DNA of 64,000 nucleotides, from the NCBI GenBank assembly GCA_021790195.1, contig JAJYIF010000001.1, positions 62,001 to 126,000 of the forward strand, written 5' to 3'. Position numbers and translations under genes: made by a program. The notes under the pieces are model-generated. The model searched no databases, was not told the DNA's origin, and saw only the letters and a list, made by a program, of their open reading frames with translations. This DNA is from Nitrospirota bacterium. Lineage in GTDB: Bacteria; Nitrospirota; Thermodesulfovibrionia; Thermodesulfovibrionales; UBA9159. Within the stretch, counting starts at the first letter, position 1, and every line of letters starts with the position of its first letter. Positions 17,732 through 35,173 of this stretch are shown in pieces.

Positions 17732-17758
17732 GAAATGTGGAAGAGTCAGCGGGCCCGA

Positions 17759-19885
17759 CTACTTGGAGTCTTTGGCTCCTCCGTTTTCGTCTTTCGGTTT
17801 AATCTCACTCTTCTCTTGAAGGAATTTATGTATGTCTTTATCTTTCGTGCCGGCCTTATACCTTTCGACATAACCCGAGGTCACTTTTTCGGCCTCTTCC
17901 ATATTTCTCATGACGTGAGGCGTGAGAAGGACGATTATCTCTGACCTGTCGCTCGTGTTTGACGTATTGCCGAAGAGATTGCCGATTATCGGGATCTTGC
18001 TTAAAAATGGAATGCCGTCTTTGGATTTTGAGCTGTCTTCCCTAATGAGTCCGCCTATGATAATGGTCTCGCCATCCTGCGCGATGAGGTTTGACGTAAC
18101 TTCTTCCTTGTCTATGGATGTAAAATCCTGGCCGGCTATCACAGTGGGGGTAGTTCCAACAGAGGAAACCTCCTGGGTCAACTCAAGGGTGACCAGCCCG
18201 CTATCGTTGATCTGGGGCTTTACCTTAAGGATTATTCCGATGTCCTTATACTGAATTGTTGAAGTGCTCGTATTAAGAACCGAAGGGGTAGTGGAAGTCG
18301 TCGTGCTGACCGTAGATAAAGGGGTGGTAGTGGTCGAGGTCGCGATAGGTATCTGTGAGCCGACCTGGATCCTCGCTTCGCGATTGTCCGAAACAAGGAT
18401 GTGAGGCGCAGCGAGAACTTTCGCCTTCGACTCACCTTCAAGCGCGTTAATAACAGCCCTGACATGCCCGGTCGGGTCGTACCCGATAAACGTAAAACCT
18501 GTCGAGGACGGGCTTGGATTACCATTCGAGTCGGTCGGCAAAATCCCCGGATTATCCGTGACATTACCGTGCAGGTTGATGTCGTTCTTAAATGGTTTAA
18601 CTCCACTTATCTTTACGCTGTTGCTGAAAGACCATGAAAACCCGAAGCTCAGGTTATTGTTCAGCTGCACCCTGACAATAAGCGCCTCGAGGACCACTTG
18701 TCTCTGGACCGTATCTATCTTCCTGATCGTGTCCTTGATAAAATCATAGTCGGCCGGAATCGCCAGGATGACCAAAGAATTCGTAATCTCATCTGCAAAA
18801 ATCTTGGTCTCGGGCGAAACAAGGAAGCCCGTCCCCGTAACAGTGGCCGCGGGGCCGGTATGAAGGGCCTGAGTCGGACCTCCGAGCGTAGGCCCACCGG
18901 TCGGCGTCGCCATCGCTGTCCTGGGCGCAAGAGGCGCTCCCAATGTAGGCGCAGCGCCTCCTCCGCCGCCACCGCCTCCGGAAAAAATCGATTGGAGCAT
19001 GGACGCAACATGGGCCGCCTTGCTGTTTTGCAAAGGATACACCATTATCGTCGGCTTCGCGTCCGCAAACATGGTATCAAAGGCCTTGACCCAGGCCCTG
19101 ACATAATCGAGATCTCTCTTGTCGGACGCAACGGCAAGGATCGCATTCAGGCGGTATATGGGGACTATCCTGACCTTTCCGAACTGCGAGCTTAACCCGA
19201 TGGCATTCTCGATGTCCGACATCGAATCTTTTATGTTGACGTTCTTGAAGGCAAAGAGCTCGATGGCGACATTCTTGGGCATCTTACCCATCTGAGCGTA
19301 TACCAGCTCGTTGGAGACTTCCGAAAGAGGAAGGATGCGGTAGAGCCCCTTCTCCTCCACAAAGCCGATGCCGTTCAGCCTCAGGACGACCTCCATAACC
19401 GAAAGGACCTCGTCCCTCGGTATGGGATTGACCGTCCTGAAGGTGACCTTGCCCTTGACCCTTTGGTCGATTATATAATTCGCCTTGAGGATATCGCCGA
19501 ACACCGTCTGAGTAACGTCGAAGATGTCCGCGTCCTCGAAATAGAAACTCACAGGGCCGCCGCCCGCAGGTTTTCCCGGCTGGGCCGCCTCGGACTTCCC
19601 CGCCTGCTCGCCTGGGGTGCCCGACGTCTGCTCAGGTTTTACCGGTGCGGGCTGCTGTCCCGGGACAGGCTGTGCAGCCTGGGGCTTGCCGGGCGCGGGA
19701 GGCTGCGGCGTTTGCGCCGGGGCTTTAGGCTGGGCCTGCGCCATCAATACATAGTTTTGCGGCTGCTGCTGCAAAACAGAAGACGCCATACCGGCGGTTG
19801 CATTTCTATCAGATGAAAAAGAAAAGGCTAATGCAAGAACCGGGGCTAAAAAGAATGTCATACGCGCAATGCGCAAAGCCTTCAA
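17759..19885 (-). CDS. gspD: Type II secretion secretin GspD-like
   Basis: Outer-membrane secretin of 708 residues. Order: N-terminal hydrophobic segment; a Pro/Gln/Ala-rich linker; an N0 domain (VSFYFEDADIFDVTQTVFG); N1/N2 repeats including VRIVPIYRLNAILAVAS; a Gly-rich insert of eight glycines; then the secretin core with VQRQVVLEALIVRVQL, VLAAPHILVSDNREARIQVG and the C-terminal DGIPFLSKIPIIGNLFG. It forms a multimeric pore for export of folded proteins. TTG start chosen for GGAG six bases upstream. No gspC/E/F/G or pilus gene is present in the window, so it is an orphan locally; a type IV pilus-like secretin is the alternative. Confidence 0.88.
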   Translation of the reverse strand: MKALRIARMTFFLAPVLALAFSFSSDRNATAGMASSVLQQQPQNYVLMAQAQPKAPAQTPQPPAPGKPQAAQPVPGQQPAPVKPEQTSGTPGEQAGKSEAAQPGKPAGGGPVSFYFEDADIFDVTQTVFGDILKANYIIDQRVKGKVTFRTVNPIPRDEVLSVMEVVLRLNGIGFVEEKGLYRILPLSEVSNELVYAQMGKMPKNVAIELFAFKNVNIKDSMSDIENAIGLSSQFGKVRIVPIYRLNAILAVASDKRDLDYVRAWVKAFDTMFADAKPTIMVYPLQNSKAAHVASMLQSIFSGGGGGGGGAAPTLGAPLAPRTAMATPTGGPTLGGPTQALHTGPAATVTGTGFLVSPETKIFADEITNSLVILAIPADYDFIKDTIRKIDTVQRQVVLEALIVRVQLNNNLSFGFSWSFSNSVKISGVKPFKNDINLHGNVTDNPGILPTDSNGNPSPSSTGFTFIGYDPTGHVRAVINALEGESKAKVLAAPHILVSDNREARIQVGSQIPIATSTTTTPLSTVSTTTSTTPSVLNTSTSTIQYKDIGIILKVKPQINDSGLVTLELTQEVSSVGTTPTVIAGQDFTSIDKEEVTSNLIAQDGETIIIGGLIREDSSKSKDGIPFLSKIPIIGNLFGNTSNTSDRSEIIVLLTPHVMRNMEEAEKVTSGYVERYKAGTKDKDIHKFLQEKSEIKPKDENGGAKDSK

Positions 19886-20061: not shown

Positions 20062-20751
20062 TCATCTGAAGAGATTATACTTTAAGATACAAATTGCAGT
20101 GCGGATGCCGTCTTTCCATCCTATCTTTTTCCCCTCGGCGTAAGTCCTCCCATAATATGAGATGCCGACCTCAAAAATCCTGCAGTTCATCTTTGCGATC
20201 TTTGCAGTGATTTCGGGCTCAAACCCGAACCTGTCTTCCTCGATCCTGATCGACTGGATGACCTCCCTTCTGAAGACCTTGTAGCAGGTTTCCATATCGG
20301 TCAGGTTGAGGTTCGTAAAGATGTTGGAGAGAAGCGTCAGGAAACCATTGCCGACCCTGTGCCAGAAATACAAAACGCGATGGGGCTCATTTCCCATAAA
20401 CCGCGAGCCATACACCACATCCGCTTTACCTTCAACGATGGGTCTTACGAGTTTCTGATATTCGCCGGGATCGTATTCGAGATCAGCGTCCTGGATGATC
20501 ACGACATCGCCCGTGGCAGCAGCAATCCCAGTCCTTATCGCAGCGCCCTTGCCCCTGTTGGATTCGTGATAAATCACCTTGTGCACAACAGGCCCGATTC
20601 TATCCTTGAGCTTGATCCTCGTCCCGTCAGTCGAGAAATCGTCCACGACTATGATCTCCTTGTTCTCGTAAGAGGAGCCCCTCACGGCGTTGACCAGCTC
20701 AACAATCGTTTCGGCCTCGTTAAAACAGGGGATGATCACGGATAGTTTCAT
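20062..20751 (-). CDS. DPM1-like GT2 glycosyltransferase
   Basis: Single-domain GT2 enzyme of 229 residues. [18 protein letters not shown] opens the nucleotide-binding fold, [12 protein letters not shown] follows, [11 protein letters not shown] is the DxD metal site, and [19 protein letters not shown] is the amphipathic C-terminal helix. This matches dolichyl/polyprenyl-phosphate hexose synthases, which load a sugar onto a lipid phosphate at the inner face of the membrane for use by GT-C enzymes. No C-terminal membrane helices are present. It stands downstream of the GT4 gene with a 65-base gap. Confidence 0.87.
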
Positions 20752-20816: not shown

Positions 20817-22025
20817 TCACCGCAGGGAATTGTATATGCGGAAATGTTCTTCGACCATATCGTCAACGGTCTTGAGCCTCTTCCTTGCCTCCTGCACGCG
20901 CTCCCGCAGAAACCTTATCACCTCCGGATGTTGTCTGACGTCTTCGATTATTTCGAGCGTCCTCGGCAGCGGGTTTTCCACCGGAACGAGAAAACCGACC
21001 GCTTCCTTGGAGACCCTTCCCCTCAATGCCCCTCCATCCGTAGCTATGACCGGGACGCCGCTGGCTATGGCCTCGGACAGCGTATACGAGAAGGTCTCGG
21101 GCCAGTTTGAAAGGAGAAGAATCAGGTCCGGGCCTGTCTTATGGATCGTCCGCACCACATCGTCTCTCGAATAACCGCCGACCACGTCGAGGTTCTTGTA
21201 AGACGGTATGATCGAGGGGTCGAAGATGTTTCCGATAATGCTGAAATCGACCGCCTCGGAGTTCCTGTAATGTTTCATCAGCTGCAGGAAGGTCGCGTTC
21301 CCTTTGTAATGCAGGAAGTTCCCGAGGAATGCCAGATGCAGGGCGCCGTTCCTCTTATGCGTTCCATTGCCGTTTTCTTCCCTTAGGATCTCCTTTTCCA
21401 CTCCGAGTTCCACCACTTCGCACTTTTCGTACGCCAGGCCCGTATATAGGTTGAGGAGGATATCTTTGACGTACAAGGACGGAACAATAACCCTGTCGGC
21501 CAGACTGAAAAGGTAATCGATGTATTGGCGCCTCTCTCTTACATATCCTTTCTGGACCTTATACCCGTTCCCGGCAAGACACTCGTGGCATTTGTCCTCG
21601 TCTTCCTCGAACCAGCAGAAATCCGGCGCAAGCATGACGCAGTTAATACACCAGAAATAATACTCGTGAAGAGTCAGCAGGACTTTCTTCCCCTTGCGCT
21701 TCGCAACCTCTATAAGAGAGAGCGGAAGGGTCCTGATGCTCTGAAAGTGCACGATGTCCGCGTCTATATCATCCAGGACCGAGTTGAAGATGTCTTCAAG
21801 CCGGGGGTCCCTCAGTCTGTGGTCGTCCAGTCTTCCGCCCTCGTAAGCGGTCTCGTGTATCTTATAGTCCTCATAGCGTCTCAACTGCAGACAGTTTGCC
21901 TCGGGGAAAAGTATATGGACGGGGATCCTTTTCCTGATGAAACGGCCCAGTATATCCAGAAGGTGGTACTCAATGCCGCCCGGATAGCCGTCCGGCTTTT
22001 GGTCTATCACGTAAAGTATCTTCAT
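20817..22025 (-). CDS. GT4-family glycosyltransferase
   Basis: GT-B fold, 402 residues: KILYVIDQKPDGYPGGIEYHL at the start, then a cysteine-containing insert (WCINCVMLAPDFCWFEEDEDKC, HECL) that may bind metal, and the C-terminal donor domain with GNFLHYKGN and SYTLSEAIASGVPVIATDGG. It begins directly at the stop of the bidomain GT2 gene, giving a GT2-coil-GT2/GT4 pair duplicated at 30.8-35.2 kb. The two GT4s share the cysteine-rich loop after the first ~130 residues. Probably adds a sugar to the same glycan as its partner. Confidence 0.85.
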   Translation of the reverse strand: MKILYVIDQKPDGYPGGIEYHLLDILGRFIRKRIPVHILFPEANCLQLRRYEDYKIHETAYEGGRLDDHRLRDPRLEDIFNSVLDDIDADIVHFQSIRTLPLSLIEVAKRKGKKVLLTLHEYYFWCINCVMLAPDFCWFEEDEDKCHECLAGNGYKVQKGYVRERRQYIDYLFSLADRVIVPSLYVKDILLNLYTGLAYEKCEVVELGVEKEILREENGNGTHKRNGALHLAFLGNFLHYKGNATFLQLMKHYRNSEAVDFSIIGNIFDPSIIPSYKNLDVVGGYSRDDVVRTIHKTGPDLILLLSNWPETFSYTLSEAIASGVPVIATDGGALRGRVSKEAVGFLVPVENPLPRTLEIIEDVRQHPEVIRFLRERVQEARKRLKTVDDMVEEHFRIYNSLR

Positions 22026-24161
22026 CTATTTGCTCTCCATCGACCTTAGCCTCAGGTTGAGATACTGGTGAAATGGACCGAGACTTTCGGAAAGGGCCTT
22101 CTCCACAAGGTGGGTGTATTCCGGATGAAGGGTCCTCAGAGTCTCGAGATTCCTCTCTATCATCTCGTTCTTGGCCTTTATGATTTCGGGCTCATTTACG
22201 GATTCAAACGAGACCCCCCCGATATGGTAGATGTAGGTCGCGTCGTCCAGGACATGCAGGAAGCCTTCTTTCAGTGCCCTCATGCAGAAATCCGTCTCCT
22301 CTGCGTATCCCTTTCCAAATCTGGTCTCGTCGAAATAACCCATATGATTCAGCACCTCGCGCTTGATATACATGCAGAACCCCACTCCGGCGGGGATCTC
22401 AGGGTAATAGCGCAGCGAAATCCTCTCCAGGAAATCAGAAAAGGCCTCAACGTCCATCCCGTCCGGGACCTTGTTGAACTGAAACGGTCTCGGCACGCCG
22501 TTGATAGTCACATAATTCGAGAGAGGCGTCGCCGTAGCAATGCGCGGCTTTGAGTACACCGCCCTCTGGAGCTTGTTCACCCAGTTCCTGGTCACGAGCG
22601 TATCGGAGTTCAGGATAATGACGTCTTCCGCCGTGCGCCTCATGCCGCTGTTTATGGTCTTTACAAAGCCGAGGTTCTCAGTGTTAAAGAGCACATCTAT
22701 CTTCCTGCCGTTTCTCCCTTCCTTCAGTCTCTGAAGATAGGTCTGGACCCTCTGGTCAGTGCTCTTGTCGTCGATGAGGACCAGGGTATGAAAGCCGAGG
22801 TCGGTATTCCGGAAAATGCTCTCGATGCAGCTTTTCAAGCATTCATACCCATTGAACACAGGCATGACAATGTGCACCGGCTTTTGGACGAAGCAATAGG
22901 CCTCGGTAGGCTTTACCCCTCTGTAAAGGAGCGCCGGGCCGGACTTCTTGAACAAGGCCCTGAACCTCGCATGCCCCGGTCTGAAGCGGAGCTTCCTCCT
23001 CGCCCTGACAAAGAGACCTCTCATGCCTTCCTGCTGCGCGACCTTCACGCTCTTCAAGAGCATCTCGTAAAAGACCCTTCTTCTTGAGCCTATAGGGGCT
23101 GTGGCGTCCTTGAACCGCCGGTACCTGTCTATCACCTTCCAGCTCAGGCTGCCGGCTATCTCCCTGCGCAGATTCAGAAGCTCATTGAGTACCCTGTCCC
23201 TCTCGGTCTCCAATTGCTGTCTCTCGATCTCCATCTGTTGTCTTTCGGACTCGAGCCTCTTCAGCCTGCTCAGGAACTCCTCCATCTCAACCGAGGTACT
23301 CGACTCGCTCCTTACAAGCTCCGACTCGATCCTCTGCTTTTCGGACCCGACCCGTATAAGTTCGTTGATGAGCCTCATCCTCTCGGTCGCATTGCTCACG
23401 CAATACGTGTAGATAGCCGTCGGCGTGATCTTGCCGATGTTCTGGTCCAGGACCTTCTTATAGGCGACCTGGCTGAAATTCTCGGAAAGCGCCCTTCTGT
23501 TGATTTGCGATTTATCGCACCACTGGATATACCGTGCCGTCACGCTCTTTACGTGCTCAAACCAGTATTTCTCGGACAGCTTGACAAGAAGCTTCCAGTC
23601 TTCGAAAATCTCGAAGCTCTCATCGAACCGGACACCTCCCATGGCCGATTTATGAAACAAAAGGCACAAAAAGGGGATATAGTTCTGGATAAGCAGCATC
23701 TCGGGAGAAAAGTCCTGGGAATAAAACACATACTTGAATTTCTCCACTATCTCGTCTTCCCCGACGATATCGACGAAGGCTATCTCGGCCTCGGTATAGG
23801 CGATCCTCAGAAGGGGGGAATTCCTGAGCCTTCCGACAAGGATCTTGAGATGCTCGGGATAGAGCTCGTCGTCATCGTCCAGAAACCCGATATACTCACC
23901 CTTTGCATTCTCCAGCCCGACGTTGCCGGCGTGCGCCCTGCCGGTGTTCTCTTTAAGCCTGATATAATTCAGGGACACGTCCCCCAGGACGCCTTTAAGG
24001 CTTTCAATATCGAGATCGCAGCCGCCGTCGTTCACGAGCACAACCTCGATCGGCCTGTGGGTCTGCGCGGCAACACTTCTCAGGGCGTTCCTTAGAAGCT
24101 TGGGCCTGTCCTTCGTCCTTACGATTATGGAGACCAGCGGACTATTCGACGTCTCAGCCAC
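22026..24161 (-). CDS. Two-domain GT2 glycosyltransferase with coiled-coil linker
   Basis: 711 residues. GT2 domain 1 (about 1-250): PLVSIIVRTKDRPKLLRNAL, VLVNDGGCDLD, YIGFLDDDDELYPEH. A linker of about 90 residues is rich in Glu/Arg/Gln (RLESERQQMEIERQQLE) and should form a coiled coil. GT2 domain 2 (about 410-700): VHIVMPVFNGYECLKSCIES, VLIDDKSTD, VIILNSDTLVTRNW, and CMYIKREVLNHMGYFDE. Two active sites in one chain suggest alternate addition of two sugars. Domain 1 is strongly similar to that of the 1048-residue protein at 32.0-35.2 kb. The stop abuts the GT4 start. Confidence 0.87.
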   Translation of the reverse strand: MAETSNSPLVSIIVRTKDRPKLLRNALRSVAAQTHRPIEVVLVNDGGCDLDIESLKGVLGDVSLNYIRLKENTGRAHAGNVGLENAKGEYIGFLDDDDELYPEHLKILVGRLRNSPLLRIAYTEAEIAFVDIVGEDEIVEKFKYVFYSQDFSPEMLLIQNYIPFLCLLFHKSAMGGVRFDESFEIFEDWKLLVKLSEKYWFEHVKSVTARYIQWCDKSQINRRALSENFSQVAYKKVLDQNIGKITPTAIYTYCVSNATERMRLINELIRVGSEKQRIESELVRSESSTSVEMEEFLSRLKRLESERQQMEIERQQLETERDRVLNELLNLRREIAGSLSWKVIDRYRRFKDATAPIGSRRRVFYEMLLKSVKVAQQEGMRGLFVRARRKLRFRPGHARFRALFKKSGPALLYRGVKPTEAYCFVQKPVHIVMPVFNGYECLKSCIESIFRNTDLGFHTLVLIDDKSTDQRVQTYLQRLKEGRNGRKIDVLFNTENLGFVKTINSGMRRTAEDVIILNSDTLVTRNWVNKLQRAVYSKPRIATATPLSNYVTINGVPRPFQFNKVPDGMDVEAFSDFLERISLRYYPEIPAGVGFCMYIKREVLNHMGYFDETRFGKGYAEETDFCMRALKEGFLHVLDDATYIYHIGGVSFESVNEPEIIKAKNEMIERNLETLRTLHPEYTHLVEKALSESLGPFHQYLNLRLRSMESK

Positions 24162-24224
24162 GGTCAGACTCCGGAACGATCTTCCCTGTTCTCATTCTGA
24201 CGCCTCTCAAGACGCCTTCCATGC

Positions 24225-25184
24225 TCATCTTTCGCCTATCTTCCCCGCCAGCAAATTCGGCAGATGAAAAAAAAGGTCGGCGACCCTCCGTCTCGCGGTG
24301 CCCTCGGGCAGGAAGCGGTCCCTGAACTTGTAATATCTCATCAGGAGCTTCCAGCCGTTGCCGGCGTAAACGCGCTGGATATGGGACTCGCGCTCCCTCA
24401 GGTCGGAAATTATATGCCCCAGGTTTTCGACAAAGGTATGTTCGTGCTTTTCGCAGATGTACCTGATGATCTGCCGGTGGTTGTCCGGGATGTTGCAGCC
24501 GGAGACCATGGAATTCCTGCGCACCCTGTAATCAAAAAGCACTTCCTCTATCAGGCGGAATTTCCAGCCCTTCTCCATGGCGCAGATCCACAGGTCCCAG
24601 TCTTCAAACCCTATGACCATCGAAGGGTCATAGCCGTTGCATTCATCCCAGATCTTCTTCCTGAAGACCGAGCACGCCTCTACGAAATTCTCCAGGAGAA
24701 GCTTCTCCGCGTCGAACGGAGGGAAGACCCATGTCCCCTTCTTCTCGCCGAACAGATTTGCGTACGCATAAACGACCCCGATTTCTCTGTCGCTGTCCAA
24801 TATCTCCACGGCCTTTTTCAGATAGTCCGGCCTGATCTTGTTGTCCGCGTCGAGGGGGAGTATGTATTGCCCTCTCGCCTCTCTTATTGCCGAATTGCGG
24901 GCGCCGGAAAGGCCCAGGTTTTGCTGGTGGATGATCTTCATCTTGCCGTTGCCGGGGGAACGCAGCTCGAAGTCCTTGAAGACCTTCAGTGTAAACGGGT
25001 CCGTCGAGCCGTCGTTCACGATGATGATCTCGTAATCCCTGAAGTCCGAAGCGAGTACACTGCCGACCGCATCGCCAAGGAATTTCCCATGGTTGTAACA
25101 GGGGATGACGACCGAGACCTTGACATCGGCCACAGTTTCGTAGTCAGGCTTCTTATTCATAAGCGTTTCAGGACTTCCCGGCAA
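24225..25184 (-). CDS. GT2-family glycosyltransferase
   Basis: 319 residues. VSVVIPCYNHGKFLGDAVGSV and IIIVNDGSTDPFT form the nucleotide site, ILPLDADNKIRPDYL the metal-binding DxD, and GFEDWDLWICAMEKGWK the catalytic region. A TTG start at 25184 is favoured by AGAGGA six bases upstream; ATG 25160 lacks a site. The C-terminus (SHIQRVYAGNGWKLLMRYYKFRD) echoes the end of the coiled-coil linkers in the two large GT2 proteins, hinting at common descent. It is probably the first gene of the operon running to 20.06 kb. Confidence 0.85.
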   Translation of the reverse strand: MPGSPETLMNKKPDYETVADVKVSVVIPCYNHGKFLGDAVGSVLASDFRDYEIIIVNDGSTDPFTLKVFKDFELRSPGNGKMKIIHQQNLGLSGARNSAIREARGQYILPLDADNKIRPDYLKKAVEILDSDREIGVVYAYANLFGEKKGTWVFPPFDAEKLLLENFVEACSVFRKKIWDECNGYDPSMVIGFEDWDLWICAMEKGWKFRLIEEVLFDYRVRRNSMVSGCNIPDNHRQIIRYICEKHEHTFVENLGHIISDLRERESHIQRVYAGNGWKLLMRYYKFRDRFLPEGTARRRVADLFFHLPNLLAGKIGER

Positions 25185-25358
25185 GACAGATCCTCTTCAG
25201 AATCCCCGTAACATCTTGTTTTTCCATACTGAATTATATGGTCTTACGACGGGTTAATGCAAGCTTTCAGGCATGGAGATGTGGGCCTCGATTTGAAGAC
25301 CAAAGTTTACTAACAAAGTCTCGCTGAAGAGCATCGCAGAAACGTATGAGTCGGATGC

Positions 25359-26303
25359 TTAGGAGAAAGGGTCTATATTATGCTTCTCCGCAATAATAAA
25401 AAGCGGCCTCTTCTTTACTTCTGCGTAAATCTTCCCTATATATTCGCCGATCAGGCCTAAAAATAGTATATTAAGTCCACCTATAAAGAAAAGCGGAATA
25501 ACAATAGAAGCCCATCCAGGGATAGCGCTGCCTATCATCTTGGTATAAAATGCCCACCCAATAAGTCCGATAGAGCCGACGGATATCATGAGACCGGTGA
25601 AGGACGCAATCCTGAGAGGGATGCTGCTGAATGAGGTTATCCCCTCCCAGGCAAACGCAAGCATTTTTTTCAGGGGATACTTGGTCTCTCCCGCGCGCCT
25701 CTCTTGCCTCTCATAGCGGACAATTCCGCGTCTAAAACCCATGTAAGGGAAGATCCCCCTGAGGAATAAATTGACTTCTTTTATCTTCTTGAATTCATCG
25801 ACGACTTTTCGGGAGATCAACCTGAAGTCGGCATGATCGTAAATGAGGTCCACCCCCATGGACTGCATAATTCTGTAAAACACTCTTGCAGTCCATCGCT
25901 TAAAAAGCGTGTCGGTCTTTCTTCCCTCTCTCACCGCGTAGACTATGTCATGCCCCGACTTGTAAACTTCGATCATCTCCCCGATCAATTCGGGAGGATC
26001 CTGCAGATCGGCATCCAGACTGACCACTGCATCTCCCGATGAATGGAGGATGCCGGCCGCCAATGCAGGCTGATGTCCAAAATTTCTGCTGAACGCGAGC
26101 ACCTTGATCTTAACTGACCCGGCAGCGAGGCCTTTCAAGATGCTTAGAGAATTATCCTTTGAACCATCGTCCACATACATTATCTCGTAATCGTCGATCA
26201 ACTGCCTGTTCATCATATCAACGGAGATATTAGATATGCGCTCGTGCGTACTCCTTAGTACGGCCTCTTCGTTAAAGACCGGAATGACAATACTTAGTTT
26301 CAT
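25359..26303 (-). CDS. GtrB-type polyprenyl-phosphate glycosyltransferase
   Basis: GT2 domain (LSIVIPVFNEEAVLRST, IMYVDDGSKDNSL, VVSLDADLQDPPELI) followed by two C-terminal membrane helices near residues 230-250 and 265-290 and the tail GEYIGKIYAEVKKRP. This is the classical GtrB/ArnC-like layout of enzymes that transfer glucose or another sugar to undecaprenyl phosphate. The product is flipped and used by a GT-C enzyme; two such candidates lie divergently at 26.5-30.0 kb. The Q-D-P-P motif and 314-residue length fit the family well. The 174-base gap before it (25185-25358) holds nothing recognisable. Confidence 0.9.
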   Translation of the reverse strand: MKLSIVIPVFNEEAVLRSTHERISNISVDMMNRQLIDDYEIMYVDDGSKDNSLSILKGLAAGSVKIKVLAFSRNFGHQPALAAGILHSSGDAVVSLDADLQDPPELIGEMIEVYKSGHDIVYAVREGRKTDTLFKRWTARVFYRIMQSMGVDLIYDHADFRLISRKVVDEFKKIKEVNLFLRGIFPYMGFRRGIVRYERQERRAGETKYPLKKMLAFAWEGITSFSSIPLRIASFTGLMISVGSIGLIGWAFYTKMIGSAIPGWASIVIPLFFIGGLNILFLGLIGEYIGKIYAEVKKRPLFIIAEKHNIDPFS

Positions 26304-26480
26304 TGAGCTCTCATATTAGGCATTCGACCCTTGAAGAAAGAAGGGGTCTTTAAGTAAAATTTACACAAAATTATATCATAGACGGGGCAATTGACACGAG
26401 GTTTATGGCGATCTCTTTTGAGAAACTATCTCGGGTCTGAGAAAATTTCTTAAATCCAACAGATATCATTGATAATCAAA

Positions 26481-28271
26481 ATGGAAAACATGAGCCAACA
26501 AATTGGAATACACAAGAGCGCGGAAAGTGAGAAAGGGTTGACGAGTCTACCCCTAATCAAGCGAAACTATTTATTCCTCTTTGTTTTCTGTTTTCTTAGT
26601 TTTAACGGATTTATCATCTATTTCATAGGCCAGGAACATTATGTCTATTTTTGGGATTACTCAGGTTATTGGAATCAATATAAAGATCTGAGCAACCTGT
26701 TTAGGCACAGCCCGATTCACGCTGTAAAGGCATTAATAACGTCCATACGTTATGATGACTACAATTCTCTGCCGGTCTTGTTCCTGGTCCCGTTCAATTT
26801 CATCTTCGGAGACAGTCGGTTAGCGTATGTTCTATCCATAACTAATTTATTTGTTTTACCGACGGTAGTCGCTTTCGGCCTCTTAATGGAGAAAATCGTC
26901 TCTATTCCCTGGGAAAGAAGATCATTTGCTGTCTATTTCATATCGATTCTGACTGCCGCATCATTCCCTCACTTGTGGATTCCGGTCGTGTTAGGGAAAG
27001 TCGATATCTCAGGAATGCTCGTAATTAATCTAATACTCCTCTTTTATATCGATAAACCTGTTGAAAAACAGGGCTTTGTCAATTTGCTCTTGATCGGAAC
27101 CCTACTTTGCATCCTGATTCTTCTCAGACGCTGGTATGCCTATTGGGTAGTCGCTTTCTTCGTTTCCATGACCTTAGAGAGAATAGTTTCTTCATTTCGT
27201 GAATACCGCTTCAAAATAGGGGCTTATCTTCCCTTTCTGAAGATAGTCATTATTGGCGTTTTTTCGGTTTTGCTATTCTTTTTGATCGCCGGTCCCGTGG
27301 CAAAGAGAATGCTCCTGACTAATTATGCTGACATTTATTCAGCATACAAGACCTCTAAGACAACAGGGCAAGCGTTTCTGAGAGTTTGCTCCTCTTTGGG
27401 GATTTTTTTCATTTCCCTGGCATTCATGGGTTTAGTCAAATCGCTGGGAGGCAATAAAACAAGGCGCCTTTCCTTCTTCCTGCTGATATTGCTGATCGTC
27501 ACATTCTTCCTGTTCAGCAGGACGCAGGATTTTGCGACTCAGCACTATTATTTGCTGATACCCACCGTACTTATTTATATATCATTTCTCCTCGTGAGTC
27601 TCTATCGCATTTTAAATGGCCGGGCCTCGAAAATCATATTTCTTGTCGTGTGTTTCGTCCTGCTATCTATCAATTTTTCTGTGGTCTTCTTCCCGAAAGC
27701 GCCGGTCCTACTGAAACGAATTACCTACCTGCTGCCCCAGGAAAGATCTTTTCCATTAGTAAGAACGGACTTAGATCAGATTCACAGCCTGATAAATGTA
27801 TTGAATACGATAGCGCAAACAAATCGCGATAATATTTACGTGATGTCAAGCTCGACAATCCTGAATGACGATATCCTAAGAAATGCATGCAATGAAGACA
27901 AGCGGAGCAAGGACATGTGCGGTCGTATTCAGCCATCGAGCAACGTCGATAAACGGGATGGTTTCCCGTTCCAATTCTTGACTGCACGTTATGTGGTAGT
28001 TGCAGATCCAGTCCAATACCATTTGAGCCCCGACGATCAACGAGTGATTGGTATCCCTGCGGAAATGATATTGCATCAGAAAGAGATCGGCTCCTCATAT
28101 AAGAGACTATCTTATGCTTTCACGCTTGATAATGACGTAAGGGTCTTTATATATGAAAAGATTAAGCCCTTCAGTGGAACTGATCTTGATAATCTCTCAA
28201 AGATGTTTATATCCTATTATCCTGATAAAGAAGATATATTCAGAATTGACCACGTTCTATATTCTCAGTGA
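26481..28271 (+). CDS. Membrane glycosyltransferase-like protein (GT-C)
   Basis: About 596 residues with a first membrane helix near 27-47. A loop with YFWDYSGYWNQYKDL bears the acidic residues expected of GT-C active sites. Roughly ten more hydrophobic segments follow to about residue 410, then a C-terminal soluble domain. No sharper family signature is seen. ATG 26481 is taken; an in-frame TTG at 26469 and ATG at 26490 exist, none with a ribosome site. It is divergent from the GtrB-type gene, with ~175 AT-rich bases between. By eye, base composition is more AT-rich than in the flanking minus-strand genes. Probable role: decorating a surface glycan outside the membrane. Confidence 0.65.
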   Translation: MENMSQQIGIHKSAESEKGLTSLPLIKRNYLFLFVFCFLSFNGFIIYFIGQEHYVYFWDYSGYWNQYKDLSNLFRHSPIHAVKALITSIRYDDYNSLPVLFLVPFNFIFGDSRLAYVLSITNLFVLPTVVAFGLLMEKIVSIPWERRSFAVYFISILTAASFPHLWIPVVLGKVDISGMLVINLILLFYIDKPVEKQGFVNLLLIGTLLCILILLRRWYAYWVVAFFVSMTLERIVSSFREYRFKIGAYLPFLKIVIIGVFSVLLFFLIAGPVAKRMLLTNYADIYSAYKTSKTTGQAFLRVCSSLGIFFISLAFMGLVKSLGGNKTRRLSFFLLILLIVTFFLFSRTQDFATQHYYLLIPTVLIYISFLLVSLYRILNGRASKIIFLVVCFVLLSINFSVVFFPKAPVLLKRITYLLPQERSFPLVRTDLDQIHSLINVLNTIAQTNRDNIYVMSSSTILNDDILRNACNEDKRSKDMCGRIQPSSNVDKRDGFPFQFLTARYVVVADPVQYHLSPDDQRVIGIPAEMILHQKEIGSSYKRLSYAFTLDNDVRVFIYEKIKPFSGTDLDNLSKMFISYYPDKEDIFRIDHVLYSQ

Positions 28272-28386
28272 AGGAAGTAGCTGACCTCTTTTTGGGGAAG
28301 CGCAGAACGGCTGGAAGGCTTTACGTTTTTCACATATTACAGATTTAAGTTTAAAGAAAGGGAATACAAGCTAAGAACAATACACG

Positions 28387-30030
28387 ATGAGTGAGAAAAT
28401 CAAGCCGCTACATATCATAGTTTTACTATGCCTTTCGTCGATCATCCTGACCTGGGCCAATCACATCTGGATCAAGAATAATCTTTCCCATTTGCCCATT
28501 ACCTGGGATCCCTCAAATTATGCATATATGACTCTTTTTGAATACAAAACCCTTCACAACGGGGGGCTCCTGCAGTTTCTCCGGACCGTTCAAACTCAGG
28601 CTCCGGCTCTTGCCCCTCTGTTTCCGGTAACCGGCGTTCCCTTTCTTTTTCTCTTCGGTCTCGATCTTAACAATATCTATCTTGCAAACGGAATCTATCT
28701 ATTCATTCTCCTAACATCTGTCTTTTTCATAGCAGAAAGGATCAGCGGGAGAACAGCGGCCATTGTAGCCTCATTTTCTGTTGCGACCTTTCCAGGCATC
28801 ATAGCTTTCTCGCGGGACTATTTCTTTGAATTCCCATCGGCAGCAATGACCGCCCTGGTCTATATGTTTCTTCTGAAGACAGATTCCTTCAGAAACAAAA
28901 GGGCCTCTGTTCTTTTTGGCATAGCCTCCGCCCTTTCGCTCCTCACGAAGACAATGGGAATCGTCTTCCTCACAGTTCCATTTCTCTACGCGTTCTATAT
29001 CTTTGCAAGAAAGAGGACTCCATGGACTATAAGAAAGCATGTCCTCTATGCTTTCTTGTCATTCTCACTTGTTGCGGGAATATATTACATCCCGAACTTC
29101 AAAGCCATCTTCGGATACCTTTTCTTCTATGGCGTAGGCAAAGGCGCTGCCCGGTATAGCGCCGGACTGTCCAATATGCTTTCTATTCAATATTGGACTT
29201 ATTACGTCTCGCCTATCATACACAAAGGGATATCACCCGGCTACTTGTTGATCTTTGTCTTATCGGCGACAGCATTCCTTATTTCATCTGGCGCAAGGAA
29301 ACTGTCAAGGGACTATTGGATAGTCCTGTTATGGCTTGTCTGCGGCTACGTCCTTCTTTCAATACCCTCAAACAAGGTCGGAGAGAGATACGCATTACCC
29401 ATTCTCCCGCCCATCGCCATCATGATGGCGGCACATATCACAAGAATTTCAATGAGACCTCTAAAGGTTTTGATTATAGGCTTAGCTTTTCTAATCGGTA
29501 TTGTGAACTATGCTTATCAAACATTCGCGGAAGGTTGCAACTACGAGCGATATTTCCTTAAGAGTACGCGCATTGCTCTCCTTGAACCAGTTCATGTGTC
29601 CTGCAACATGCAAAGAGGCCTTATGATCGACTCCTCGAAAGATTGGAGCTTGCTGCCCATGTTGAAATACATGGATGACAACAGCCAACATTATAAGTCT
29701 GTCAACGTCCTTGTGGCGGTCGATCATAATTTCTTAAATAATTATGGGTTGCGTCTCTATGCGCTCTGGGGTGAACTGAAAGGGATTTTGAAGTCGGAGT
29801 TTACATTCGACACCGCTGCATTCAGGCCTTATAGTGAAGACGAGATCAAGCAATTGCTGGCCAAGCGTCAATTTATCATTGTTAAGACAGACTACCAGGG
29901 ACCGGGCGACACCAATGAATATAATGGCGTCATAAAGAATCTTCTCAAGAAAGAAAAGCCCTTGAAGAGCTTTGATATGAGTGACGGCTCGACCGTCTCA
30001 ATTTATTCAAGCATTATAGGAACGAGATAA
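28387..30030 (+). CDS. PMT/ArnT-like membrane glycosyltransferase (GT39-type)
   Basis: 547 residues. The N-terminal helix leads to a periplasmic loop with ITWDPSNYAYMTLFEYK, carrying the aspartate used by GT-C/GT39 enzymes to activate a polyprenyl-linked donor. Further helices run to about residue 385, including FLFGLDLNNIYLANGIYLF and SRDYFFEFPSAAMTALVYMF (the latter similar to the second acidic loop of ArnT/PMT proteins). A soluble C-terminal domain follows. It stands 115 bases downstream of the other plus-strand GT-C gene; the gap shows no terminator. Predicted to act with the GtrB-type enzyme. Substrate unknown. Confidence 0.78.
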   Translation: MSEKIKPLHIIVLLCLSSIILTWANHIWIKNNLSHLPITWDPSNYAYMTLFEYKTLHNGGLLQFLRTVQTQAPALAPLFPVTGVPFLFLFGLDLNNIYLANGIYLFILLTSVFFIAERISGRTAAIVASFSVATFPGIIAFSRDYFFEFPSAAMTALVYMFLLKTDSFRNKRASVLFGIASALSLLTKTMGIVFLTVPFLYAFYIFARKRTPWTIRKHVLYAFLSFSLVAGIYYIPNFKAIFGYLFFYGVGKGAARYSAGLSNMLSIQYWTYYVSPIIHKGISPGYLLIFVLSATAFLISSGARKLSRDYWIVLLWLVCGYVLLSIPSNKVGERYALPILPPIAIMMAAHITRISMRPLKVLIIGLAFLIGIVNYAYQTFAEGCNYERYFLKSTRIALLEPVHVSCNMQRGLMIDSSKDWSLLPMLKYMDDNSQHYKSVNVLVAVDHNFLNNYGLRLYALWGELKGILKSEFTFDTAAFRPYSEDEIKQLLAKRQFIIVKTDYQGPGDTNEYNGVIKNLLKKEKPLKSFDMSDGSTVSIYSSIIGTR

Positions 30031-30182
30031 TTCCAGATTCTATTTTGACTGCATTGCTTCAGAACATATCACCAGACAATCGCACACGTGCAGGCTTCAG
30101 CCGGGGAACCCTGTGCCCTTCTCATGACAGTGTTCCTTTCTCCGACCCTGTCCTTCCGTAATCTGAACTTGACTTATGTTTA

Positions 30183-30755
30183 TTATAGTTTGACCTTTTC
30201 AACAATTGCGCGAGTCTTGTCATTGTCTGAAGGAATTCCGCCGGATGATTCGATTTTCATACGCCCAGTGGATTCCATAGAATACATCCCAATTTTGATC
30301 ATTATTTCTTTTCCTATAGCTGCTGGAGCAATGTCAATTACAAAGGGCTCTTCGATAAACTTGCCTTTTAATTCCTTAAATGGTTTGTCCTGACAAAAAT
30401 CGTGGTCATTTCCGAACAATTCCTTATCATCTTTATCCGTAAAGTGCACGAATACAGTATTAAAAGAACCAAGATCATCCATGAGCTGCCAATAATATGA
30501 AATTTTCAGCTTATTCAGGGGCTGTTTTTCGGCTGTTATCCCAAGGAGCTTTATCTTGTTTCCATAATTAATCTCGACAGGTGTTGCTATGCCCGCGGGC
30601 AATTTATCATATACTTGACAAGGACCGGTTATCCTCAGCGGCTTCTGGACCTTCTCCTTTTCGCAAGCCGACAAAACGATCAGCATTAACGCAACCAGAC
30701 ACGATATCGCCACTCTCGCTTTCCCCGATAACGCCGTTCCATTCTTTCCAGACAT
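30183..30755 (-). CDS. Lipoprotein with a domain found with GT39 enzymes
   Basis: 190 residues, lipobox VLSAC after a hydrophobic helix, strong AAGGAGG before the ATG. The mature part reads as a beta-sandwich: KIKLLGITAEKQPLNKLKI, YYWQLMDDLGSFNTVFVHF, GNDHDFCQDKPF and EIMIKIGMYSMESTG. The V-H-F-T-D / D-H / G-M-Y pattern resembles the small domain appended to some PMT-type membrane glycosyltransferases and secreted glycan proteins; that resemblance is an inference. Likely tethered in the periplasm. It lies between the two glycosyltransferase groups, and the 152 bases 30031-30182 beside it contain nothing clear. Confidence 0.65.
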   Translation of the reverse strand: MSGKNGTALSGKARVAISCLVALMLIVLSACEKEKVQKPLRITGPCQVYDKLPAGIATPVEINYGNKIKLLGITAEKQPLNKLKISYYWQLMDDLGSFNTVFVHFTDKDDKELFGNDHDFCQDKPFKELKGKFIEEPFVIDIAPAAIGKEIMIKIGMYSMESTGRMKIESSGGIPSDNDKTRAIVEKVKL

Positions 30756-30788
30756 ATGATTCCTCCTTATTTTTGAGCAATATTATAT

Positions 30789-32030
30789 TTAAGACAAAAG
30801 CTCCCTGTAAATCAACTCGGTATTAAAAGCCTCTTCCTCTACACGGATAGGATAGCGTATATTCCTCTTGAAGTCATTCAGTCGCTCAGGGTGGGCTGCG
30901 ATGAGATCGATCTTCTTCGCTAAATCGTCCGGGTCCCCCGCTCTAAACGTCAATCCGTTTTCCCCGTCAACAATCATCTCACTCATGCCGCCTATATCAG
31001 AGGTCAGGACAGGAATGCCGTATGCAAGGCTCGTTGTGATAGTAAGAGGGGCGTTTTCGTACCAAACCGATGGGACAATCACCATGTCGATAGGCTCAAG
31101 AACTGCCTCAATGTTGTTGAAGCCGTATGCGCCCTTGAACTCGATGCGCGAATCGTCTTCGGAGCTCTTTAACAGGTTGTTACGGTAGTCGATCTCATGA
31201 AAACATCCCCCCCAAACTTCCAAGCGGATGTTCCGATATTGGCTCTTCTTGAAAGCCTCGACCATAATATGCACGCCTTTGTGGTACTGAATTGTGCCGA
31301 TATATCCAAATCTTACTATCTCCTGGCGTCCGTTGGTCGAATAATTCCTCTTCCGTGTGTAGTCAAATCCGTGCCGGGATAGAATAAACCTATCAGCCGG
31401 AATAAAACCGGCCCGATCGAAGAGCGTAATGAGGAACTGGGACGGGGAAAGCAAATAGTCGCAGCAATCGAGCAGCATATTGGCGTCCGCAATCCTCCTC
31501 TGCATCCGCGCGTCGTCGACCTGAGGGAAGCAGTATTTCAAACATTTTTGACCGCCGTCCGGGCCATCGCACAGCGAATTATCCGGCCTCAGCATAATGC
31601 CCATGGGGCACATCATAAAGTAATCGGTGACCATCAAAACGACCTTTACACCGGAATCCCGCGCGGCCTTAATCGAGGAGGCGATCCGGAGAGGGTGTGC
31701 GCAATGGTAAAGATCATAGTCCCCTATTTCAAAGAGTTCTCTGACCTTTCCATAGATATCCATATCCATAAAGTCGAACACAAAGGTGAGGTCGTCAGGC
31801 TGCTGCCTGTGCTTCAGTGAAATAACCGGTACACCCTCATACGAATACTCTCTAAAAAGCAATCCCGAGGAATGTTCTTCCTGCGAATCATGATCCTCCC
31901 TGAAGGCATAAGTCAGGACCCTTACAAAATGTCCCATCCTCTGGAGCTGCTTGGCAAGATTAAGGACATACCTTTCAGTGCCGGTATAATGATTAGGAAA
32001 GAATTGATGCACTCCCAAGAGGATTCTCAA
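30789..32030 (-). CDS. GT4-family glycosyltransferase
   Basis: 413 residues, GT-B fold: RILLGVHQFFPNHYTGTERYV at the start and GYIGTIQYHKGVHIMVEAF plus TITTSLAYGIPVLTSDIGG in the donor domain. It contains a cysteine-rich insert (MMCPMGIMLRPDNSLC, KCLKYCFPQ) comparable to the one in the 402-residue GT4. It overlaps the upstream 1048-residue GT2 by four bases (ATGA), so it is translated with it. The pair is a second copy of the 20.8-24.2 kb pair. Donor and acceptor unknown. Confidence 0.86.
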   Translation of the reverse strand: MRILLGVHQFFPNHYTGTERYVLNLAKQLQRMGHFVRVLTYAFREDHDSQEEHSSGLLFREYSYEGVPVISLKHRQQPDDLTFVFDFMDMDIYGKVRELFEIGDYDLYHCAHPLRIASSIKAARDSGVKVVLMVTDYFMMCPMGIMLRPDNSLCDGPDGGQKCLKYCFPQVDDARMQRRIADANMLLDCCDYLLSPSQFLITLFDRAGFIPADRFILSRHGFDYTRKRNYSTNGRQEIVRFGYIGTIQYHKGVHIMVEAFKKSQYRNIRLEVWGGCFHEIDYRNNLLKSSEDDSRIEFKGAYGFNNIEAVLEPIDMVIVPSVWYENAPLTITTSLAYGIPVLTSDIGGMSEMIVDGENGLTFRAGDPDDLAKKIDLIAAHPERLNDFKRNIRYPIRVEEEAFNTELIYRELLS

Positions 32031-35000
32031 ATGCCGCCTCCGCTGAAACAGTCAATTCTGGTCTGCGTATTCTCGCCAAGATAGTTTCCGGCAGTAACGC
32101 TGAATAATTTGTAAACGGTGCCCAGAAAATCCTCCTCTATGTCTTGCATAGAGGCATAACTTGTCACAAACTTTGAGAAACTCAGAAAGTTGTTCATCAG
32201 ATTAGTGTACATGCCACCAATTATCTCTTTATGATGGTAAGGCTCAACCTTCCCGAAAAAATCATCAAGGAGCGCGTCCCCTCTGAGTGATCGCCAGGAG
32301 GGGTTGAAAGCATTGATGCTATTGCGGAGGCTATCGCTCAGCAAATGAAGAAATAAATAGGGCCTTTCGCGAACATCTTCCCTGCTTCTCAGCGTTGTCA
32401 GGCATGCTTTAAGGGCTGCATACAAGCAACAGGCCGCTCCCGTTACATGTTCGACCGGAATATCATTCTTCGTTATCTTTAACATATTCCATAGCGAAGA
32501 TGTATCAATATAGCTTCTTTTAAGAAAATAGCCGGCCGGCCTGTTATGAGAATGAATAACGGCATTGGACGATTGGAGAAGAATCGTGTGGCCGTCATCC
32601 AGTAATCGGAGGCCCAGGTCAAGATCTTCCGCATAATCAGAATCAAACAGGTATTTGTCGAATGTTGATTTGCCAATTCCCAGACAAACACTGTCCAGGC
32701 TCGCCATCACCCTTTTTGTTGACGTACTAAGGGTCTTAAAACTATCAACTGCCGACTTACTATAGCGATGATCCCTATCGCCTCCCAGATAGTTGACGTT
32801 ATGGTTCCAGTATGACCAGCTAGCAAAAAGGTCCGCGTCGGCGCGAGGTATCTGCCTGGCTGAAACAGCGGAAGCCTCGCCGGAATGAATAGGGCGAAGA
32901 AGCTTGTAAAGCCAGGAATTACTGACGGGGATGGCGTCCTGGACGGTAAACACAAGAAAATCGCCTGTTGCCTTCTCAGCCCCGAGATTGCGAGTCATGG
33001 CGTGATGGAAGTCCCCGGGCGAAATACGAAATACCTTTTGCGTATAACGTCCGGCGATTTCGAGGGTCCTGTCCTCGGAGCCGGAATCGATAACGATCAC
33101 TTCTTTATCTTCAACCCCCTCCTGCTGCGTGATTCTGCGCAAGGTGTATTCGAATTCCTCGCCTGCGTTCTTCGTGGGAATGATTATCGATGCCCTTGAC
33201 CGTATCGGTTCGGCGATAACATTATTGAACAAGCTGCCGTATACACTGCCCCGTCTATGACGCGTCCTTGCATCCTGTCCGGAAATTGTCTTAATGGATG
33301 ACCAGCCTCTCTCCTTCTTCGCCTGAAGCTCAATGTTGTTCCCCCTCAGATGGCCCGATGCTGCGACCGTATCGGCAGTCTTCTTCCCTGCATCGATCTT
33401 CCGATAGATGCGGTCCCTTATGCTCCGATATTTCTCCAAGAGCAGCCAGCCACGCGTGTTCTTCATCGCGGTTAACAATGAATCCTTTTCGCGTATTAGA
33501 TTCTGCAAGATCAGGACCTCGGCCTTCTTACTCTCCAACTCCGACGATATGACATCGAGGCTGGAATCCTTCTTCCTGACGCTCGAGATAAAGGTATCGA
33601 TCTGGGAATTCCTTTCGCTCAGTTCGGCCGAGAGAGAGAATATCCGTGCGTCCCTGTCCCTAAGCTCGATGTTGAGGGAATTGATAAGGGAATCCCTTTC
33701 CCCTATCTCGGCATAGAGCTTGACCATCTGAGCATCCCCTTCGCGCAGATCAGAATGGAGTTTGATAAGTTGAGCAGCTCTTTCCCTTAAATCAGCCTGG
33801 AACTCGACAAGTTTGGCGTCCCTCTCGCTTATTCCGGAACTTAGGACTTCCACCTGGGAGCCCCGTTGCCCCAGCTCGGCCGCGAGGGCTTCTATCTGCG
33901 CCTTTCTCTCCCTGAGCTCCGCAGTAAGGGCGCTTATCTGGGAATCTCTGTCCCTCAACTCGTTATATAAATTCTCGACCCTGGGTCCTTTCTCCTTCAA
34001 CTCGGTGTAGAGTTTGTCGATCTGTTGGTCCTTGCCCCTCAATTCGCTGTTGAAGATGTCTATCTGAAACTCACTCCTTTTCATCTCATCCGCAAGTGCG
34101 ATGACCTTTTCATCCCTCTGCCTTAACTCCTCAATCAGCCTTCCTGATTCCGAAGTCTTTTCCCTCAGGCCGGCTTCGAGCTCGTCACTGCGCCTTTCCT
34201 TCTCCTTCAACTCGTCCCGCAGCTTCTCTATCTGAGGACCTTTTTCTTTCAGCTCCTCGAGTATTCTCCCCAATTCAGCGCCTTTCTCTCTCAGGCCGGC
34301 ATAAAGGCCGTCTATACGCGAATCCCTGTCCTTTAAGGCCTCTTTGTAAACATCGGATTCACGTTTGAACTCTTTAAGGATATGCCTTGTGTGAACATAC
34401 TCTGACATATAATCATGGATCCGGTTTGGAGTGATCTTATCGCTATGCGTGGACAATACTTTGAGATACGCCTGCCTCAGAAAGACGGGGTCCCGGTTCA
34501 CCTGCGATATCTGGAAGTCCACGCTCCACTGGTTGTAGTTTGCCGTGATTTCCCTGATATGATAGAAAGGATACTTTCTGCCGACCCTTATAAGCAGGTC
34601 CCAGTCTTCGTAAAGATCAAAACTATTGTCGAAGCCGCCTGAACCGACGAGCACCTTTCTCCCGAACATCAGGCACATAAGGGGGATGTAGTTTTCGAAT
34701 ACGAGCTTGTCGTAATTAAAGTCCTGCGAAAATGCGAGCTCTCTTTTCACATCTTTATCGAGATCATGAGTGTCAGGATTGTATTCCTTGTAGACCATGA
34801 CCGAATCGGTATAGGCGACGCTATAGTCACTTTTTTCGAGGAACGAGACAAGCGTTACCGCGTGGTTGGGGCAGAACTCGTCGTCGTCGTCCAGGAATCC
34901 TACATACTTCCCCTTTGCGTTTTCAATCCCCGTATTGCCGGCGTGAGACCTCCCCATGTTCTTTTCGAGTCTGACATAATTGAGCGGTATGTCGCCGAGG

Positions 35001-35173
35001 GTCCCCTTCAGTTCGCGGACGTCCAGGTCGCAGCCGCCGTCGTTCACAAGCACGACCTCTATGGGACGGTAGATCTGGGCCGAGATGCTCTTCAGCGCGC
35101 GCTTCAGGAGCTTGGGCCTGTCTTTTGTCCTGACGATTATGGAGACCAAGGGATTATGAGTCACATTTGCCAT
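32027..35173 (-). CDS. Two-domain GT2 glycosyltransferase with long coiled coil
   Basis: 1048 residues. Domain 1 (1-250): PLVSIIVRTKDRPKLLKRAL, VLVNDGGCDLD, YVGFLDDDDEFCPNH, close to domain 1 of the 711-residue paralogue. Residues ~265-590 are a long heptad-rich coil made of ~14-residue units such as LREKGAELGRILEE and LRDRDARIFSL. Domain 2 (about 660-900): RASIIIPTKNAGEEFEYTLR, VIVIDSGSEDRT, FLVFTVQDAIPVSN, DYAEDLDLGLRLLDDGHT, rhamnosyltransferase-like. A ~150-residue all-helical tail follows. Such coils in polysaccharide enzymes can act as spacers between active sites or as length rulers; applying that here is inference. Confidence 0.87.
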   Translation of the reverse strand: MANVTHNPLVSIIVRTKDRPKLLKRALKSISAQIYRPIEVVLVNDGGCDLDVRELKGTLGDIPLNYVRLEKNMGRSHAGNTGIENAKGKYVGFLDDDDEFCPNHAVTLVSFLEKSDYSVAYTDSVMVYKEYNPDTHDLDKDVKRELAFSQDFNYDKLVFENYIPLMCLMFGRKVLVGSGGFDNSFDLYEDWDLLIRVGRKYPFYHIREITANYNQWSVDFQISQVNRDPVFLRQAYLKVLSTHSDKITPNRIHDYMSEYVHTRHILKEFKRESDVYKEALKDRDSRIDGLYAGLREKGAELGRILEELKEKGPQIEKLRDELKEKERRSDELEAGLREKTSESGRLIEELRQRDEKVIALADEMKRSEFQIDIFNSELRGKDQQIDKLYTELKEKGPRVENLYNELRDRDSQISALTAELRERKAQIEALAAELGQRGSQVEVLSSGISERDAKLVEFQADLRERAAQLIKLHSDLREGDAQMVKLYAEIGERDSLINSLNIELRDRDARIFSLSAELSERNSQIDTFISSVRKKDSSLDVISSELESKKAEVLILQNLIREKDSLLTAMKNTRGWLLLEKYRSIRDRIYRKIDAGKKTADTVAASGHLRGNNIELQAKKERGWSSIKTISGQDARTRHRRGSVYGSLFNNVIAEPIRSRASIIIPTKNAGEEFEYTLRRITQQEGVEDKEVIVIDSGSEDRTLEIAGRYTQKVFRISPGDFHHAMTRNLGAEKATGDFLVFTVQDAIPVSNSWLYKLLRPIHSGEASAVSARQIPRADADLFASWSYWNHNVNYLGGDRDHRYSKSAVDSFKTLSTSTKRVMASLDSVCLGIGKSTFDKYLFDSDYAEDLDLGLRLLDDGHTILLQSSNAVIHSHNRPAGYFLKRSYIDTSSLWNMLKITKNDIPVEHVTGAACCLYAALKACLTTLRSREDVRERPYLFLHLLSDSLRNSINAFNPSWRSLRGDALLDDFFGKVEPYHHKEIIGGMYTNLMNNFLSFSKFVTSYASMQDIEEDFLGTVYKLFSVTAGNYLGENTQTRIDCFSGGGI
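33430..34380 (-). repeat. Degenerate ~42-base coding repeats of the coiled coil
   Basis: About twenty 14-residue units, most starting L-R-E/D-R/K-D/G and continuing with I-x-x-L-x-x-E-L. The DNA shows the same period, with recurring words such as TCCCTCAACTC and GAATCCC. It is built by tandem duplication and then diverged, so length could vary between strains. Confidence 0.7.

Follow-up and report, generated by a model that had tools for sequence, protein, structure and literature searches.

The window is a stretch of 64,000 nt covering positions 62,001-126,000 of contig JAJYIF010000001.1 in assembly GCA_021790195.1 of a Nitrospirota bacterium (UBA9159; genome 3.3 Mb). As a sequence-only reading of this DNA had described, two loci in it each encode a protein (A and B) with two GT2 glycosyltransferase domains joined by a coil, followed by a GT4 glycosyltransferase gene on the same strand; B overlaps GT4b by 4 bp and A directly abuts GT4a (Table 1). 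By sequence, A and B are members of the GT2 family: PF00535 (Pfam) matched two stretches in each, with protein totals of 137.8 and 144.9 bits against a cut-off of 23.3, and the FLDDDD and EDW stretches of the N-terminal GT2 (N-GT2) were found in both, so that the GT2 catalytic acidic motifs are present. The adjacent GT4 genes matched PF13439/PF00534 (Pfam). Among NCBIfam models, the second GT2 of A most closely resembled HpsN and that of B MftF/EpsD, in each case below the cut-offs.

Table 1. Positions in the window of the coil proteins, their parts, and the neighbouring GT4 genes
Feature	Position	Strand	Evidence
Protein A, 711 aa, GT2-coil-GT2	22026..24161	-	ORF; Pfam; homologues
A N-terminal GT2, aa 1-256	23394..24161	-	Pfam; alignment of 21 homologues
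A coil, aa 257-340, heptad repeat with 21-bp DNA array	23142..23393	-	lag-7 test; TRF
A post-coil basic platform (Trp 341)	22995..23177	-	platform profile E 5.9e-21
A second GT2, aa 423-711	22029..22895	-	Pfam; NCBIfam
GT4a, glycosyltransferase partner of A	20817..22025	-	Pfam
Protein B, 1048 aa, GT2-coil-GT2	32027..35173	-	ORF; PF00535 two stretches; homologues
B N-terminal GT2, aa 1-258	34400..35173	-	Pfam; alignment of 21 homologues
B coil, aa 270-563, 21 unbroken 14-residue repeats	33485..34366	-	lag-14 test; unit table
B post-coil basic platform (Trp 576)	33302..33484	-	platform profile E 7.4e-13
B second GT2, aa 656-1048	32030..33208	-	NCBIfam; AlphaFold pLDDT mostly 70-90
GT4b, glycosyltransferase partner of B	30789..32030	-	Pfam
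Protein C, 319 aa, GT2 with platform, ~30 aa spacer	24225..25184	-	platform profile; Pfam

The coil is followed by a conserved stretch, roughly GW(K/R)xLxxYRxxRDRxxPxGxxRR, which is here called the platform. Its net charge over 36 residues averaged +7.1, versus -0.5 in windows drawn at random from these proteins, as measured in 48 of the 62 homologues described below (those with an intact 5' end whose platform scored 30 bits or more). A platform profile made from 41 stretches matched proteins A, B, and C and nothing else in the 3.3 Mb genome; in the phylum sample it was found in 12 of 148 genomes at E 1e-5. Protein C adjoins A and matched the profile at 24264-24389 (E 4.1e-16); neither this protein nor the conserved post-coil motif had been noticed in the sequence-only reading. 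The order of N-GT2, spacer, and platform is the same in all three proteins, and the spacer measures about 30 aa in C, 83 in A, and 316 in B, the last two values being close to the ~90 and ~325 residues estimated by the sequence-only reading.

The two loci had been regarded as duplicated pairs with first GT2 domains near-identical in motif order. Pairwise comparison showed these domains to be homologous only (50% identity over 256 aa), and identity fell to 22% over 124 aa between the second GT2s and to 21% over 280 aa between GT4a and GT4b. Nearer relatives were found elsewhere (77% for A, 78% for B), and in a tree of 62 N-GT2 sequences, in which inner support was weak (26 of 59 branches open, with a long-branch warning), A grouped with A-type proteins of other genomes while B adjoined the protein of locus L088. 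Simple duplication of the two pairs was therefore rejected; the low identity outside the N-GT2 and the tree positions indicate that the pairs are old, and what they have in common is only the N-GT2-coil-platform module.

The coils of A and B were analyzed by self-comparison, coil scoring, and structure prediction. Self-identity of the B linker at lag 14 was 0.274, compared with 0.084 in shuffled sequences (none of 1000 as high), and its 21 units, with consensus DSQIDKLYAELRER, follow one another without a break of register, which bears out the earlier claim that the longer coil is made of 14-residue repeats. Each unit comprises two heptads, with hydrophobic residues at positions 4, 7, and 11 (fractions 0.86, 1.0, and 1.0), Arg or Lys at position 14 in 19 of 21 units, and a charged fourth core position. 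The A linker showed the corresponding signal at lag 7 (0.267 versus 0.106; none of 1000 shuffles as high), and its coding DNA contains a TRF array of 21 bp x 2.5. Coiled-coil prediction, whose failure was to have told against the proposal, was performed using a COILS-type score; it recognized the A coil at 284-340 and only two parts of the B coil (300-352 and 398-434), the remainder of B not being called as coil, probably because of its charged fourth core position. AlphaFold models placed helices across the linker of A and at 249-293, 301-437, and 445-571 of B, the long helices of B mostly at pLDDT about 70. Confidence was low in both, the A model being poor overall (mean pLDDT 47; shallow alignment of 6 rows) and that of B weak (mean pLDDT 63; 8 rows). 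The B stalk contains two Gly-Pro pairs and 14 Gly, which speaks against one rigid rod.

Homologues were collected from 60 relatives of the same order and 78 named loci, mostly from Nitrospirota metagenome genomes. A total of 94 N-GT2 proteins scored at least 150 bits after removal of rows sharing the first 250 residues with a protein already counted, and the coil-length counts were based on the 62 with a recognized platform downstream, the other 32 being excluded; 16 of the 17 seeds of the platform model belong to the 62 proteins counted with it. Linker length was measured from the end of the N-GT2, which is uncertain by a few residues, to the conserved Trp. Viral contigs yielded only weaker GT2 relatives, at no more than 39% identity. 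Some Desulfobacterota homologues have about 230 further residues before the N-GT2, and such an extra module was seen in L143, L144, L151-L154, and L159, which are mostly titled Desulfobacteraceae or Deltaproteobacteria; in these proteins the N-GT2 is thus not the distal end.

Coil-length variants, which the sequence-only reading had proposed to look for in related genomes, were found, the 62 linkers ranging from 26 to 316 aa with a median of 92.5. A coil was predicted in 53 of them by the COILS-type score, and coil residues made up 51.5% of linker positions versus 0.19% of the remainder of the same proteins. The comparison was then narrowed to 19 proteins selected by their second GT2 (A- or B-type), of which three are truncated at contig ends. 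Linkers of the B type (n=11) measured 42-316 aa with a CV of 0.79, and the distance from Trp to second GT2 was 70-105 aa with a CV of 0.10; for the A type (n=8) the values were 48-114 aa (CV 0.23) and 76-89 aa (CV 0.05). Across these 19 proteins the coil varied up to 7.5-fold and the spacing from platform to second GT2 stayed near 85 aa. The earlier suggestion that the coil is a spacer is supported in that the coil is the only part that changes strongly in size, the platform-to-second-GT2 distance being fixed. Lengths in L105, L112, L116, L131, and similar loci are provisional, as draft metagenome assemblies may collapse or extend long tandem arrays.

The C-terminal partner of the module in the homologues may be an A-type GT2, a B-type GT2, none, or further GT-like stretches in chains as long as 1824 aa, and at least 19 changes of partner type were needed on the N-GT2 tree (shuffled mean 24.9). 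A GT4 of the matching type lay directly downstream in all six A-type and nine of ten B-type cases that could be assessed (15/16; the exception is in G018), three cases at contig ends being left out of this count.

Tandem arrays in the coil-coding DNA were searched using TRF (score of at least 50) and were present in 19 of the 62 stretches, compared with means of 0.8 when codons were shuffled and 1.6 when the shuffling was confined to heptad columns (20 replicates each). The period of the best array was a multiple of 3 bp in 19/19 and of 21 bp in 14/19, the remaining five being 54, 78, 138, 138, and 150 bp, and copies were up to 98% identical. Since the arrays consist mostly of whole heptads, coil length changes by duplication that preserves the heptad phase. 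Pooled self-identity of the 51 linkers of at least 60 aa was 0.218 at lag 14 and 0.136 at lag 7, over a background of about 0.07. In L116, a 42-bp unit is repeated 7.6 times at 98% identity over bases 450-768 of the coil DNA; provided the assembly is correct, this coil was expanded very recently. A probable assembly fault within the repeat interrupts the A-type gene of UBA2194, which is split inside the coil near an unresolved base (L118 7889-8184).

Between B and its nearest relative, L088, the coil carries gaps of 14, 15, and 14 aa, and identity is 78% in the N-GT2, 42% in the coil, and 55% in the second GT2. No tandem array was detected by TRF in the coil DNA of B, and active slippage in B itself was rejected for this genome; arrays are present in the coils of the B-type relatives L088, L112, and L116. 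Close pairs, inspected by eye, did not show linker lengths in exact multiples of 7; the end of the domain is fixed only to within a few residues. Equal linkers occur in five of the closest pairs (51/51, 230/230, 218/218, 30/30, and 106/106), and coil length is hence heritable. With long and short coils divided at 130 aa, the N-GT2 tree required 9 changes, which, within the limits of a weakly supported tree, indicates more than one origin of long coils.

A PgfS/GtrB-like GT2 (25359-26303) lies between the two pairs. Within the minus-strand cluster, two large plus-strand proteins (600 and 547 aa, the second PMT_2-like) are encoded at 26469-30030, where G+C is lower (0.42-0.44 versus mostly 0.50-0.55). 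After A and GT4a come a GT2 (20062-20751), a GspD-like secretin, and a PIG-L deacetylase. The secretin/PIG-L stretch (16853-19885) and 20817-24161 occur in the same order, without the extra GT2, in UBA2194 (L118 6983-13774), and the order A-GT4a-secretin-PIG-L was also found in G036 (L068, L069), with methyltransferase genes inserted; the secretin is present in Ess09-11 (L122) as well. The glmM and comEC genes (35285-38982) also precede an N-GT2 coil gene in G001, G003, and G005 of the same family, so that one and the same position in this locus is occupied by different coil proteins. At 53930-62380 an ORF of 2816 aa with fibronectin type III and beta-propeller repeats encodes what is likely a large surface or secreted protein.

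Export genes were also considered. A wzm-wzt pair whose Wzt has a Wzt_C carbohydrate-binding domain is located on the same contig, 4 kb beyond the left edge of the window and at distances of 26 kb (A) and 36 kb (B) from the two coil genes (G000:C33 56044-58025; L224 14044-16025); it adjoins a second ABC-2 transporter, a GT4, and a methyltransferase. No wzm or wzt gene was found beside the 19 A/B-type genes, within flanks of mostly 7 kb and on some shorter contigs. Either wzm or wzt was near 11 of the 94 N-GT2 homologues, with the coil gene directly after wzt in G002 and G015. Wzt_C occurred in 10 of 16 genomes with strong N-GT2 matches (>200 bits) and in 14 of 45 others, a weak co-occurrence whose Fisher p of 0.04 ignores kinship and genome size.

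Published coil rulers are arranged as distal enzyme, coil, membrane helix, and polymerase (PMC11231755). In WbdD, WbbB, and ORF6-O7 the coil carries the terminating enzyme at its distal end, and glycan size is determined by the length of the coil (PMC11231755, PMC5082667, and PMC3482155); in E. coli O9a, engineered coil length in WbdD alters O-antigen length (PMC5082667 and PMC11231755). As in A and B, WbbB (Klebsiella pneumoniae O12) and ORF6 (O7) have an N-terminal enzyme, a central coil, and GT module(s) after the coil, and in O7 part of the polymerase is on a separate protein, as may be so for A and B (PMC11231755). WbdD shares with A and B a distal catalytic head, a coil, and a C-terminal membrane part (proposed for A and B) and differs in being a trimeric kinase-methyltransferase terminator with no GT domain.

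Extended coils follow the N-terminal catalytic domain in our proteins too, in A by score and in B partly by score and by the long helices of the model. Where rulers have a membrane-associated amphipathic helix, the A/B family has the conserved basic, Trp-containing platform, which may dock on the membrane, and the place of the membrane-proximal polymerase would be taken by the second GT2, 70-105 aa past the Trp in the 19 selected proteins, with the GT4 next in 15/16. The distal module of A and B is a GT2, whereas in the WbbB/ORF6 type it is a GT99, the activity of which is that of a Kdo-transferase, or a methyltransferase-kinase. A and B further differ from that type in that the GT4 is encoded next door, no ABC transporter is adjacent, several such proteins occur per cluster, and the family has natural coil lengths of 26-316 aa. 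By anatomy A and B resemble WbdD/WbbB-type rulers; membership in that class is not claimed, a role as terminator, docking on the membrane, and export by an ABC transporter being hypothetical for both.

A second comparison is with the two-domain GT2 polymerases E. coli K4 chondroitin polymerase (2z86/2z87) and heparosan synthase (8vh7), which have two GT2s per chain. These were related to the N-GT2 by a sequence match (E 1.4e-13) and by fold matches; neither is known to have a coil or a platform between the GT2 domains, and the GT2 domains of A and B are, unlike theirs, up to 400 residues apart. The best PDB sequence match of the B N-GT2 was PglI (9jma, a GT2 named for undecaprenyl-linked oligosaccharide; E 3.5e-17), which, unlike B, is a single enzyme of 306 aa without a coil partner. 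Glycosyltransferases were among the matches listed in a PDB fold search with B.

The reading that we tentatively prefer, at a probability somewhat short of even, is that the GT2-coil-platform module is anchored at the membrane and that coil length, tuned by heptad duplication, determines how far the N-GT2 is held from that membrane. The N-GT2, the helical coil, and the basic amphipathic platform would act as one module in A, B, and C, with the platform docking on the inner membrane. The membrane-proximal part of an assembly complex would, in A and B, consist of the second GT2, which lies about 85 residues beyond the platform Trp, and the GT4 encoded by the next gene. The coil, presumably oligomeric, would keep the N-GT2 away from the membrane, where it may act on the end of a lipid-linked glycan at the distance that the coil sets. 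As a fully extended helix (0.1485 nm per residue) the coil of A would span about 12 nm at most and that of B about 47 nm, and bending at the Gly-Pro kinks would shorten this reach. Coil length would be tuned through in-frame tandem duplication or loss of whole heptads, and glycan length could be influenced as in WbdD/WbbB. This ruler reading is plausible from the layout; a strict ruler is opposed by the kinked stalk of B, by the occurrence of more than one such protein per cluster, and by lengths that drift among relatives. Three such proteins lie in the window and three pairs in a row in G036, and several in one cluster would be odd for a single chain terminator. The more specific proposal of a Nitrospirota glycan-ruler family, in which the heptad-duplicated stalks of the paralogues (~30, 83, and 316 aa) and of sister-lineage homologues with the same second GT2 type (42-316) would give different glycan lengths with catalytic domains unchanged, is considered rather unlikely.

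The strongest rival is a tether: the coil would only multimerise the enzyme and serve as a loose link between the N-GT2 and the membrane complex, its length drifting freely via tandem duplication once above a minimum. Relatives that retain N-GT2, C-terminal GT2, and GT4 differ strongly in coil length, and neutral drift would give the same pattern, the enzymes being kept while the stalk changes. The lower conservation of the coil than of the enzyme domains between B and L088 and the Gly-Pro kinks also fit a tether, as do DNA repeat units that are 92-98% identical and suggest recent duplication. It is less easily reconciled with the five close pairs of equal coil length, with A-type coils that stay within 48-114 aa, and with units that keep the heptad phase, by which the helix seems to be under selection. 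We regard free drift as a real possibility, though on balance doubtful.

An assembly line, in which the GT2-coil-GT2 and GT4 pairs work one after another, each attaching a single fixed oligosaccharide block to a lipid-linked glycan over a reach that its coil length merely suits, would account for the three consecutive pairs of G036, the three GT2-coil-GT2 genes of Ess09-11 (L097/L122), the match of each C-terminal GT2 type to its own GT4 type (15/16), and the three lengths of C, A, and B in the window. Coil lengths form no graded series in G036 (70, 42, 79) or in Ess09-11 (64, 64, 93), and we judge this arrangement distinctly improbable. Least credence is given to ordinary fusion of two unrelated GT2 enzymes on one chain with the coil as a functionless linker: it would agree with the wide range of C-terminal partners and the changes of partner type on the tree, yet coil and platform are retained in 62 of the 94 homologues although the partners change.

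Within the collection covered, literature searches found no paper joining glycosyltransferases, Nitrospirota, coiled coils, and polysaccharide, and none on evolution of coil length by heptad tandem duplication in bacterial coiled coils, which is not proof of absence in print. In the sources cited, the length of a coil ruler was altered by engineering WbdD; here a natural length series exists with recognizably the same flanking enzymes. Such a series lets the question of stalk length and glycan length be asked by comparing relatives or by swapping coils alone. If length is irrelevant, long enzyme coils can drift freely, and caution would be due before every coil is taken for a ruler. Tandem duplication of heptad units is a simple mutational route by which bacteria could alter the length of a surface glycan without new enzymes.
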